Assembly: GCA_015232575.1 (NCBI GenBank)
Contig: JADFZL010000013.1
Span: 62,001-126,000 of the forward strand
Direction: 5' to 3'
Length of the DNA stretch: 64,000 bases
From: Candidatus Rifleibacteriota bacterium
GTDB taxonomy: Bacteria > Muiribacteriota > Ozemobacteria > Ozemobacterales > Ozemobacteraceae
Part shown: one piece after another, positions 11,319 through 61,520 of the stretch
Layout of the letters: each line of letters starts with the position of its first letter
Position numbering within the stretch: the stretch's first letter is position 1
The notes under the pieces: model-generated
What the model saw: only the letters and a program-made list of their open reading frames with translations
Told to the model about the DNA's origin: nothing
The model's database searches: none
Position numbers and translations under genes: made by a program

Positions 11319-12083
11319 CTACAAACCTGTCGGAAGGTCTATAAATTCGTGCTGCAAGTTGAATTTTTCTGCAAGATGGTCACCGAGAGCCTTAACTCCG
11401 AATATTTCTGTCAGATAATGACCGGCTGATACTGCATGAATTTTTCTTTCTTCTGCGGAGAAATAGTGCTGATGATGAATCTCTCCTGTGAGAATCAGAT
11501 CGATATTTTCTTCACAGACAATGCGGTCTGAAATTGCCGAACCACCGCCGCCTGATACAATTCCGACTCTGGATATTTTTTTCTCTCCAAAATTCAAGTG
11601 GCAGGAAATTTTGCCAATCTTTTTCTCGATATCTTTGAGAACATCGCCAATTTTTTTCGGTGATTCATATTCGCCATAGACGCCGACTTTGCTTCCCTGA
11701 TAATCGCAGAAGTTTCCAATAATCTTAAGTCCGAGAAGACGCGCAAGAATTGGATTATTACCAAAGTCAGCATGCAAATCAAGCGGCAGATGAAGAGCAA
11801 ATAGATTAATATTCCCGGAAATCAGCTCTGAAAATTTATTTTTCCAGTATTTATCAACAAACGAAACTTCGCCGCCTTTCCAGAACATTCCATGATGTAC
11901 AATAGCAAATTCAGCATCTCTACGCCGTGCTTCACGCAAAAAATCAATGCTTGCGTCAACGCCTGATACGATCTTCTTAACCTTATTTGAACCAGTAAAC
12001 TGCAATCCGTTGTATGAAGAATCTTTTATCTGCTCATAATTAAGCAATTCTTTAATATGTATTACCAAATCCTTTACCTGCAT
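11319..12083 (-). CDS. Nif3-like dinuclear metal centre protein (YbgI family)
   Basis: The ATG at 12083 is preceded by AAAGGAGC five bases upstream; a longer reading from 12110 runs into a repeat element and is unlikely. The 254-residue protein shows the family metal ligands: FAIVHHGMFWKGG (first His pair), ALHLPLDLHADFGN (Asp/His) and HAVSAGHYLTEIFG near the C-terminus, with GEIHHQHY. Nif3/YbgI proteins form hexameric toroids with a two-metal site and are annotated as GTP cyclohydrolase I type 2-like, but their physiological role is unsettled. The GC-rich three-hairpin repeat begins directly upstream of the ribosome site and so forms the 5' leader. Confidence 0.9.
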   Translation of the reverse strand: MQVKDLVIHIKELLNYEQIKDSSYNGLQFTGSNKVKKIVSGVDASIDFLREARRRDAEFAIVHHGMFWKGGEVSFVDKYWKNKFSELISGNINLFALHLPLDLHADFGNNPILARLLGLKIIGNFCDYQGSKVGVYGEYESPKKIGDVLKDIEKKIGKISCHLNFGEKKISRVGIVSGGGGSAISDRIVCEENIDLILTGEIHHQHYFSAEERKIHAVSAGHYLTEIFGVKALGDHLAEKFNLQHEFIDLPTGL

Positions 12084-12099
12084 AGTTGCTCCTTTTTTT

Positions 12100-12314
12100 A
12101 GAGGGGGCACGCGCCCCCTCTCGGCATTCGAACAAGTTCGAATGCCTCACTCCCCGCGGGCGCGCACTTGTGCGCTCCGCAATGTCCCTTACCATTCTTT
12201 TTGCGAGTATCCAAAGCCCCTCTCGGCATTCGAACAAGTTCGAATGCCTCACTCCCCCGCGGGCGCGCACTTGTGCGCTCCGCAATGTCCCTTACCATTC
12301 TTTTTGCGAGTATC
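12100..12314. repeat. GC-rich three-hairpin element, copy R1, with a 102-bp duplication
   Basis: Hairpin 1 is at 12100-12121 (9-bp stem AGAGGGGGC with ACGC loop), hairpin 2 at 12123-12146 (GGCATTCGAAC, AA loop, GTTCGAATGCC), and hairpin 3 at 12162-12175 (GCGCAC, TT, GTGCGC). A direct repeat with a period of 102 bases follows, so hairpins 2 and 3 occur again at about 12225-12278. It is far more GC-rich than its surroundings. Related copies lie at 36017 and 61339. Confidence 0.85.
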
Positions 12315-15589: not shown

Positions 15590-25534
<9,945 letters not shown>

Positions 25535-35634: not shown

Positions 35635-36000
35635 TTATTGCTTTGCAGAAACGATTTTTTCTGAAACTCCGTTCTTTTCATCTACCAGAATGACAACAGG
35701 CTTATGATTCTTCAACTCGTCCTTAGTAATATAAGCAAAGGTGACAATAATAAGTTTGTCACCAGCAAGAGCAAGACGTGCGGCAGCACCATTCAATGCT
35801 ATTTCTCCAGGTTTCCCTTCAATTATATACGTAGAAAACCTTGCACCATTGTTAACATTGTATATATCAACTTTTTCAAATATATTCATTTCTGCCGCAG
35901 AAATTAATGAAGGACAGATAGAAATAGAACCCTCATAATTAAGATCAGCACCGGTAACCGTAACCCTGTGAAGTTTCGACTTCATAACGTTAATCAACAT
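35635..36000 (-). CDS. panD: Aspartate 1-decarboxylase
   Basis: PanD makes beta-alanine from aspartate for pantothenate synthesis and is a self-cleaving pyruvoyl enzyme. At 121 residues it is of normal length. The start MLINVMKSKLHRVTVTGADL matches the family; the cleavage site is G24-S25 in YEGSIS, and FSTYIIEGKPGEIALNGAAA matches the core with its conserved NGAAA. It is the last gene of the pantothenate/CoA run but is separated from coaX by 428 bases filled with the GC-rich hairpin element and a 51-base tandem array, so it may be separately controlled. Confidence 0.95.
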   Translation of the reverse strand: MLINVMKSKLHRVTVTGADLNYEGSISICPSLISAAEMNIFEKVDIYNVNNGARFSTYIIEGKPGEIALNGAAARLALAGDKLIIVTFAYITKDELKNHKPVVILVDEKNGVSEKIVSAKQ

Positions 36001-36016
36001 ATATGCCTCTTTTTAG

Positions 36017-36093
36017 AGAGGGGGCACGCGCCCCCTCTCGCAGGTCGAACAAGTTCGACCCGCTCACTCCCCGCGGTCGAGCACTTTGTGCTC
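36017..36093. repeat. GC-rich three-hairpin element, copy R2
   Basis: Hairpin 1 at 36017-36038 has the same 9-bp stem as in R1. Hairpin 2 at 36040-36063 has GCAGGTCGAAC pairing with GTTCGACCCGC around an AA loop. Hairpin 3 at 36079-36093 is GAGCAC, TTT, GTGCTC. The element starts 16 bases upstream of the panD start, so it lies in the panD leader. Confidence 0.85.
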
Positions 36094-36384
36094 TCCGCTG
36101 CTTTTGCCACACTGACTTTCTCACTGAACCAGCACTTTGTGCTCTCCGCTGCTTTTGCCACACTGACTTTCTCACTGAACCAGCACTTTGTGCTCTCCGC
36201 TGCTTTTGCCACAATGACTTTCTCACTGAACCAGCACTTTGTGCTCTCCGCTGCTTTTGCCACAATGACTTTCTCACTGAACGAGCACTTTGTGCTCTTC
36301 GCAACGATAGCCATTCGAAATTTTTTGCTGGTCAAACACTTGTGGTCTACAACAACCATAGTCCTCCAAATTTTTTGCAGGGGC
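36080..36384. repeat. Tandem array of 51-bp units
   Basis: Units begin at 36080, 36131, 36182, 36233 and 36284, each with AGCACTTTGTGCTCTCCGCT and all exactly 51 bases apart; the first four are almost identical (one C/A difference). The fifth and a sixth at about 36335 are degenerate, sharing AAATTTTTTGC. Each unit restarts with hairpin 3 of the element. A further palindrome GGGCTTGA...TCAAGCCC lies at 36381-36400. Open frames through the array arise because 51 is divisible by three. Confidence 0.85.
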
Positions 36385-61001: not shown

Positions 61002-61340
61002 ATGCCAGAAATAATTATTGAACAGATAAAATCGGGAACTACCGAAATTTTCCGAATAAACGGCTATCTCGACGAAACAGGCGGAGATAAGCTGAAATTG
61101 CTTTGTGAAAAGGCAATTTCTGATGGACGAAAAAATTTTCTATTTAATTTTCAAAACACTCCGGTAATAAATAGTAGTGGTCTCGCCATGTTTCTTGAAA
61201 TTGCAGTTAAAATAATTGATTATAAATCTGGAAAAATTTCCGTTACAGGGCTTTCTAAAATCACCAAAACGGCATTTCACATGATCGGACTTCTTGAACT
61301 TGTTTCTGAATACGAAACCGAAGAGCAGGGAATTTTTTAG
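61002..61340 (+). CDS. STAS-domain anti-anti-sigma factor-like protein
   Basis: A 112-residue STAS protein. The phosphorylation loop reads TPVINSSGLAMFLEIA with S58/S59 as the acceptor; the Asp usual before it (DSSG) is Asn here. The rest (IFRINGYLDETGGDKLKLLC, FLFNFQNTPV, ISVTGLSKITKTAFHMIGLL) is canonical. It probably binds an anti-sigma kinase when unphosphorylated and is reset by the SpoIIE-type phosphatase encoded upstream. The stop codon TAG (61338-61340) belongs to the GC-rich hairpin element that begins at this point, so the last residues may have been replaced when the element arrived. Confidence 0.88.
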   Translation: MPEIIIEQIKSGTTEIFRINGYLDETGGDKLKLLCEKAISDGRKNFLFNFQNTPVINSSGLAMFLEIAVKIIDYKSGKISVTGLSKITKTAFHMIGLLELVSEYETEEQGIF

Positions 61341-61520
61341 AGGGGGCACGCGCCCCCTCTCGACGATCGAACAAGTTCGACCGTCTCACTCCCCGCGGTC
61401 GAGCACTTTGTGCTCTCCTGCGCCTGAGCGTGCCTCTGGCTCTTTAGATAGCACTTTGTTTTCCCCGGCGTCTGAGCGTGCCTCTGGTTCTTTCAAAGGG
61501 GCACTTTTGAGTATTATTGT
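61339..61520. repeat. GC-rich three-hairpin element, copy R3, with degenerate tandem units
   Basis: Hairpin 1 at 61339-61360 is identical in stem to R1 and R2. Hairpin 2 at 61362-61385 reads GACGATCGAAC, AA, GTTCGACCGTC; hairpin 3 at 61401-61415 is GAGCAC, TTT, GTGCTC. Units starting GCACTTT follow at 61403, 61451 and 61501, sharing TGAGCGTGCCTCTGG. The rest of the gap to 61552 is empty. Confidence 0.82.

Follow-up and report, generated by a model that had tools for sequence, protein, structure and literature searches.

Three copies of a GC-rich element of three hairpins lie in a 64,000-nucleotide stretch from the draft genome of a Candidatus Rifleibacteriota bacterium (the whole stretch is called the window here). 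They raise the question whether such a structure is kept by selection where it stands or moves as a unit, and by what means it could have reached its present sites. An earlier note, made from the letters of the window, had proposed that it was one or the other. The evidence gathered here favours a REP/MITE-like non-autonomous mobile element which is recognised in folded single-stranded form and whose insertion follows the polarity of replication, a reading to which a probability of roughly 0.55 is given.

The element in the window

The core has a constant order: hairpin 1, hairpin 2, an unpaired TCACTCCCCGCGG with two further bases, and hairpin 3. The first copy (R1, positions 12100 to 12179, plus strand) is of full length and consists of hairpin 1 (12101 to 12120, GAGGGGGC(ACGC)GCCCCCTC), hairpin 2 (12123 to 12146, GGCATTCGAAC(AA)GTTCGAATGCC, the variant with all pairs formed), the unpaired linker (12147 to 12161, TCACTCCCCGCGGGC) and hairpin 3 (12162 to 12175, GCGCAC(TT)GTGCGC), all read on the plus strand. 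It abuts the Shine-Dalgarno sequence of a minus-strand DUF34/NIF3 gene (11319 to 12110) and is counted in the gene-start class. The listed GTG start of this gene at 12110 falls inside the core, and the likely start is an ATG with a Shine-Dalgarno sequence at about 12083. Also of the gene-start class is R2 (36015 to 36096, plus strand), which abuts the Shine-Dalgarno sequence of the aspartate decarboxylase gene (35635 to 36000, minus strand) and has its hairpins at 36016 to 36039, 36040 to 36063 and 36079 to 36093. R3 (61338 to 61419, plus strand; hairpins at 61340 to 61359, 61362 to 61385 and 61401 to 61415) belongs to the gene-end class, its junction holding the stop codon TAG (61338 to 61340) of a STAS-domain gene (61002 to 61340, plus strand). 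Hairpin 2 has one A.C mismatch in both R2 and R3.

The three copies thus exist as the earlier note had described them, with starts at 12100, 36015 and 61338, and hairpin 3 reads GCGCAC/GTGCGC or GAGCAC/GTGCTC as claimed. Hairpin 1, called invariant, is so in the window copies and covaries across genera. The description of hairpin 2 as a constant inner TCGAAC-AA-GTTCGA within varying outer arms also applies to the window; genome-wide, the AA loop is inverted to TT in five loci, as expected from template switching at palindromes. The supposed wobbles in GCAGG/CCCGC and GACGA/CCGTC are A.C mismatches on the plus strand that was read and become G.U on the minus strand only. The sequence TCGAACAAGTTCGA is found exactly at 12128, 12230, 36045 and 61367, and with up to two mismatches it has 9 matches against 0.76 expected.

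Overlooked at that time were a partial second core piece (12218 to 12282, plus strand) and the tandem arrays at R2 and R3. Tandem Repeats Finder gives periods of 103, 51 and 48 bp for the arrays at the three copies. The R1 array (12115 to 12314, plus strand) has two units of about 103 bp, composed of the 3' part of the core, starting at the right arm of hairpin 1, and of local sequence; the partial core piece lies within its second unit. At R2 the array (36080 to 36348, plus strand) is built from 51-bp units of hairpin 3 plus local sequence, of which about 4.4 copies are near-identical before the array becomes degenerate, and at R3 (61402 to 61493, plus strand) 1.9 copies of a 48-bp unit are present.

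Dispersal in the host genome

The host genome is a 7.05-Mb draft in 54 contigs. The genome-wide search which the earlier note had suggested was run with a covariance model (83 positions, 26 pairs) and gave at least 150 matches; at least 115 distinct loci, not three, were left once tandem units and duplicates had been removed. Several cores in unrelated flanks are identical over 82 nt, which is a sign of recent dispersal. The 300 nt to the left of the element and the 400 nt to its right hold no recurrent gene.

A comparison of orthologous loci had also been suggested. The model search found no match in the congener (G001), and all nine orthologous regions recovered there are free of the element. 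In one of them (L185 compared with L267) the distance between the matched flanks is about 20 nt in the congener and about 600 nt in the host, and in another (L218 compared with L268) the insertion has replaced the last few codons of a gene. That the element moves as a unit is therefore borne out by the dispersed loci with their unrelated flanks and by the element-free sites of the congener.

Fold, covariation and the unpaired linker

The consensus core of this genome folds with -45.7 kcal/mol (z -5.4), a value equalled by none of 200 shuffled sequences. RNAalifold finds 26 pairs in an alignment of 26 sequences from three genera, ten of them with changes on both sides; when one copy linked to 5S rRNA and the copies from a genome outside the phylum (G269, described below) are added, 12 of 25 pairs have both-sided changes.

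Uncompensated stem changes in further copies had been named as what would refute the structure, and the search for them had a mixed outcome. Hairpin 2 occurs in this genome with 39 distinct arm combinations, of which fewer than half are fully paired, most others having one mismatch. The arms are nevertheless paired far above what shuffled partners give: 169 of 195 outer pairs are Watson-Crick, compared with a mean of 110 and a maximum of 131 in 10,000 shuffles. The mismatches of the outer arms are mostly A.C on the plus strand (14 distinct combinations) and never G.T, and A.C on the plus strand is a G.T or G.U wobble on the minus strand. This excess has a two-sided P of about 1e-4 if the combinations are taken as independent, the copies being related to each other. 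The substitutions of the unpaired linker (6 C>T, 2 G>A) do not have this bias and so speak against a simple mutation bias of one strand. In G007 and G009, two genomes of other genera, G.U and A.C occur equally often when judged by eye (about 3 to 3).

That the structure is selected, the other possibility which the earlier note had named, is supported by stem changes that are compensated in this genome, between three genera and probably also in a second phylum. Compensated stems can arise from template switching in replication too (PMC8794818), so that covariation by itself is not sufficient proof of selection. The better argument is the kept unpaired linker. Its sequence CT(T)CACYCCCCGYGG persists alongside the compensatory changes of the stems, the motif CACTCCCCGCGG of the R1 linker is among the best-kept parts between genera, and the linker together with the CGCG of the hairpin 1 loop is kept from this genome through G269. 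Another finding was that the linker reads GCGT (with a T as the base after GCG) in 14 of the 115 loci, and in all 14 CTCA replaces CTCC 3' of hairpin 3, as if the two were a covarying pair in a register one base off that of RNAalifold.

Junctions, position at gene edges and orientation

On the left, positions -5 to -1 are T in 84 to 96% of loci, followed by AGA or AGAGA and then by GGGGGC; the T-run is also seen, less strongly, at gene-end copies. At the gene-start sites that were compared, the complement of the Shine-Dalgarno sequence is not followed by a T-run in the congener, so the run may partly be the element's own. The right end is sharp at CTCTCCG, beyond which the sequences diverge. 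In the host genome no terminal inverted repeat was present in the left flanks read, and no target duplication was seen in array-free loci.

About 85 of the 115 copies stand directly upstream of the Shine-Dalgarno sequence of an opposite-strand gene, which is left free, and about 30 near or at the stop codon of a same-strand gene; these classes were assigned by hand and a few loci are ambiguous. At gene starts, 14 to 24 nt mostly separate the left end of the element from the start codon. The right side has no such tight fit, the median distance from the end of the array to the next reading frame being 171 nt. Targeting of T-runs alone fails to explain this position, because gene starts hold too few of them: of about 190 non-coding T-runs in the window, 14 (about 7%) are found there, against about 74% of the copies. 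Either erosion of the flanks has stopped at the sequence required by the gene, or the insertion process or selection prefers gene edges.

Such a position invites the explanation that the element is a dispersed cis-acting RNA leader, the hairpins of a minus-strand transcript protecting the message or tuning its translation and being kept because they are useful. The large gene-start class with its narrow spacing to the start codon is what a leader would show, and so are the one-sided changes of hairpin 2, which are G.U on the minus strand, in the presence of a linker without a matching excess of G-to-A changes. The stop-codon copies speak against it, as their RNA sense is reversed while their orientation on the chromosome is the same. 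Further points against a leader are the genes of the window (NIF3, aspartate decarboxylase, STAS), which have no common theme, the lack of any copy in the congener, and G007 and G009, where the core sits in MITEs and the wobble count is even. A leader function is judged unlikely.

The orientation of the copies fits the mobile-element reading better. Neighbouring loci on a contig have the same orientation in 64 of 80 cases (P = 3e-8), and on contigs with a clear majority all 19 gene-end copies follow it. Gene-start and gene-end copies share the contig orientation though their genes are on opposite strands, so orientation follows the chromosome and not the gene. Insertion into single-stranded DNA at replication forks gives such an orientation (PMC6006769), and from the coherence of contigs in the draft assembly we infer that the polarity is probably that of replication. 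The GC skew of the plus strand is -0.067 and -0.057 for gene-start copies (C-rich, a weak signal confounded by gene strand) and +0.012 and -0.022 for gene-end copies.

Relatives in other genomes

Among 40 genomes of the phylum, the model has at least 114 matches in G009, 29 in G007 and one each in G005 and G012 (fourth genus). An exact 22-mer scan of 84,980 species, a set from which the window's own genome may be absent, returned only bacterium CG2_30_54_10; this metagenome-assembled genome (MAG) corresponds to G009, and the core sequences are the same. The core of G007 and G009 is contained in MITEs with the terminal inverted repeats GTATCWTCTCAATAA...TTATTGAGNNGATAC, bounded by 8-bp target duplications such as ATGCATTC, CAAGATTT, CTTCAAAG, GAAAAACC and GGGCGAAT. 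G007 has a second type of MITE, with the ends ACCATTTAGT...ACTAAATGGT and the same core within. MITEs of the first type, with GTATCWNCTCAATAA ends, have 191 matches with at most one mismatch in the host genome and none in the control, and 669 looser matches in G009. This family is large in the host genome and carries several cargos there (for example L114, 1501 to 1601).

The core could accordingly be a mere passenger of ordinary transposons, spread by a transposase acting on terminal inverted repeats, the host copies having lost their ends later. The MITEs of G007 and G009 with their target duplications, the second end type in G007 and the abundance of the first family of inverted repeats in the host as well all agree with this. 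It is nonetheless held improbable: the host left flanks that were read contain no terminal inverted repeat, the junction there is a T-run with no target duplication seen, and every copy would have had to lose both ends at the identical point.

The single copies of G005 and G012 are degenerate, and each stands beside a 5S rRNA 3' end and terminator. In G005 (L156, 1 to 330) this 3' end and terminator are duplicated and flank the degenerate copy on both sides. In a wider sample of 287 genomes, G269 is the only one outside the phylum with probable relatives of the element. Its two copies are 90.5% alike over 137 bp and have the same order of hairpins, with a hairpin 2 that is fully rewritten yet paired (CCAGCCGG/CCGGCTGG) and the linker CTTCACCCCCCGTGG. 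The model gives E-values of 5e-6 and 6e-5 per genome, the better one corresponding to about 1.5e-3 over the 287-genome sample, and the two copies are probably homologous to the element. After hairpin 3 they have a fourth long hairpin (AAGACCGCGTGGCGCG...; L293 about 1980 to 2110, L294 about 1960 to 2105), and one of them lies near a TPP riboswitch.

Tandem arrays

In 80 of the 115 loci hairpin 3 repeats downstream together with the sequence next to it, usually forming a tandem array; in G009 an array was present at one of ten loci inspected. The unit may start anywhere along the core and its start point varies by locus, the spacer is locus-specific, and units of full length are found when a T-run ends the spacer. 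Capture of donor DNA as the source of the spacers was rejected, as spacers are not common to loci except for unrelated repeats. The arrays look like local tandem duplication beside a hairpin and not like multiple insertions.

The dispersed copies, and arrays of this kind with them, could also come from a process which needs no enzyme of its own. A T-rich nascent lagging strand would pair with the A-run beside a copy, copy its hairpins and return, and the same template switching, known to create and repair hairpins (PMC8794818), would yield tandem arrays and compensated stems. The T/A-rich junctions without target duplication, the locus-specific arrays with their varied start points, the inverted hairpin 2 loops and the strand polarity are all compatible with it. 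This account is improbable, since conservation of the linker and of part of the hairpin 1 loop reaches as far as G269, beyond what copying errors alone would keep, and since the burst in the host, with the congener free of copies, looks like the work of an enzyme.

Search for the mobilising enzyme and for known identities

Matches to PF01797 (Y1 transposases) comprise one IS200 in the host genome and one weak match in G007, none being found in the MAG G009; the G007 and G009 MAGs are 64 to 67% complete. The host IS200 was rejected as the source, its ends differing from the core, and in the host genome, G007 and G009 no RAYT gene (PF01797) is flanked by the core. A TnpB/guide-RNA element was likewise rejected, as TnpB (PF07282) is absent from the host (G000), G007 and G009.

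Reverse transcriptases of the host genome comprise one intact DRT9-type defence enzyme and one split gene; that of G009 is broken, and none was detected in G007. The DRT9-type gene is at L263, 922 to 2481 (about G000:C50:280322-280963; PADLOC Drt9, E 6e-197). A bacterial SINE-like cycle, in which the A-run of a minus-strand RNA pairs with T-rich primers at Okazaki-fragment ends and is reverse-transcribed towards the right end, would account for the fixed T-run on the primer side, the strand polarity and the wobble bias of the minus strand and could draw on the host's reverse transcriptases, but it is very improbable given that the sole intact enzyme found is one of defence, that G007 and G009 offer none detected and a broken one, and that the right end is sharp at CTCTCCG without variable truncation.

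Several known identities were also rejected. No Rfam family matches at gathering score in the window or on the element in the G269 copies, ARAGORN finds no tRNA at the element, and there was no match to a plasmid or phage origin. Four viral contigs with a degenerate linker pattern fail the model (best E 0.34). An intrinsic terminator does not fit, as the T-run precedes hairpin 1 on the plus strand and on the minus strand the hairpin is followed by A's.

Proposed mechanism and comparison with known systems

In the favoured reading of a REP/MITE-like mobile element, the recognised form would be a folded strand of about 80 to 85 nt comprising hairpin 1, hairpin 2, the conserved unpaired linker CTCACTCCCCGCGG and hairpin 3, of which linker and hairpins may be read by an enzyme of the host or of a transposon. 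New copies would join 3' of a short T-run, without terminal inverted repeat or target duplication, and in one polarity relative to the chromosome, most likely by way of single-stranded DNA at the replication fork. They would persist where they are harmless, flush with a Shine-Dalgarno sequence or a stop codon, and after insertion the hairpins may promote tandem duplication of the 3' part together with the local sequence beside it. Two related genera differ in that the core is carried there by inverted-repeat MITEs.

Non-autonomous IS200/IS605 derivatives of the PATE-like kind resemble the element. The likeness lies in the hairpins, the T-rich target, the lack of duplication and the strand polarity: IS200/IS605 elements have hairpins, insert 3' of a short target without duplication and do so in a replication-coupled, strand-specific way (PMC6006769), and insertion of the element 3' of a short conserved sequence with no target duplication is what was found here. 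Unlike in such derivatives, TnpA or TnpB with matching ends were not found in the host genomes, and this counts against the favoured reading. The polarity also appears to be the reverse of what is expected, since IS200/IS605, the enzyme class that comes closest, should enter the lagging-strand template whereas the GC skew, weak and confounded as it is, puts the plus strand of the element on the C-rich strand.

REP and REPIN sequences with their RAYT (TnpA-REP) are short GC-rich palindromes which are non-autonomous and taken to move as single-stranded DNA (PMC2817692, PMC3116915, PMC8266576), and the element is like them: GC-rich, palindromic, non-autonomous and extragenic, with more than 100 copies (115 loci or more, almost all of them at the edge of a gene). 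A REP is one hairpin of 20 to 40 bp, in contrast to three hairpins and a conserved linker in about 80 nt, and it is defined by a GTAG or GTGG tetranucleotide 0 to 2 nt 5' of the hairpin (PMC6006769). No constant GTAG or GTGG stands at the foot of any hairpin in the host consensus or in alignment A1; CGTGG, and with it GTGG, is confined to the linker of the G269 copies. The element further differs from REP/RAYT systems in having no RAYT flanked by the repeat, in its mostly single orientation per contig and in tandem arrays with local spacers.

Other systems are less close. The CGTC-tagged palindromic repeats described by Di Nocera et al. (2013) occur in several phyla without a dedicated transposase (PMC3733652); the element has no constant CGTC tag and a much longer composite structure. 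MITEs of DDE transposons carry the core between terminal inverted repeats with 8-bp target duplications in G007 and G009; neither feature was seen in the window genome. The TAACTGA repeats of Beggiatoaceae are dispersed just upstream of start codons, suspected of being regulatory and patchy across phyla (PMC4679880). These direct repeats of a heptamer mostly have the orientation of the gene and overlap the ribosome binding site, which the element leaves free.

The element works like a REP or an IS200/IS605 derivative, yet it fails the defining tests of either, namely the tag tetranucleotide and the partner enzyme, and it is best filed with the small palindromic mobile elements as a new variant. 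A bolder proposal would be a widespread class of mobile DNA, found in at least two phyla and defined by the fold HP1-HP2-CT(T)CACYCCCCGYGG-HP3, whose copying needs no dedicated transposase and passes through single-stranded DNA or RNA at the ends of lagging strands, with minisatellites seeded at insertion; this is thought of as a long shot.

Small palindromic repeats fill many bacterial genomes, and the movers of many families are not known. This family offers clean clues in its kept unpaired linker, its main polarity per contig, its flush junctions at gene edges and its arrays at most copies, and a single core occurs on its own as well as within MITEs of two kinds. The core and its relatives in other genera, and probably in another phylum, may serve as bait for finding the mobilising enzyme.

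Further repeats

Another dispersed repeat, containing TTTCGACCGAAGGGAGAAATCT, occurs in many intergenic regions of the host genome, among them the right flanks of L006, L143, L151, L184, L191, L204, L206, L209 and L235. Within the window, minisatellites of the GTTCCAGTTCCAGTGCCA type are located at 22266 to 22360 and 25166 to 25342, in a minus-strand reading frame of 3310 codons.
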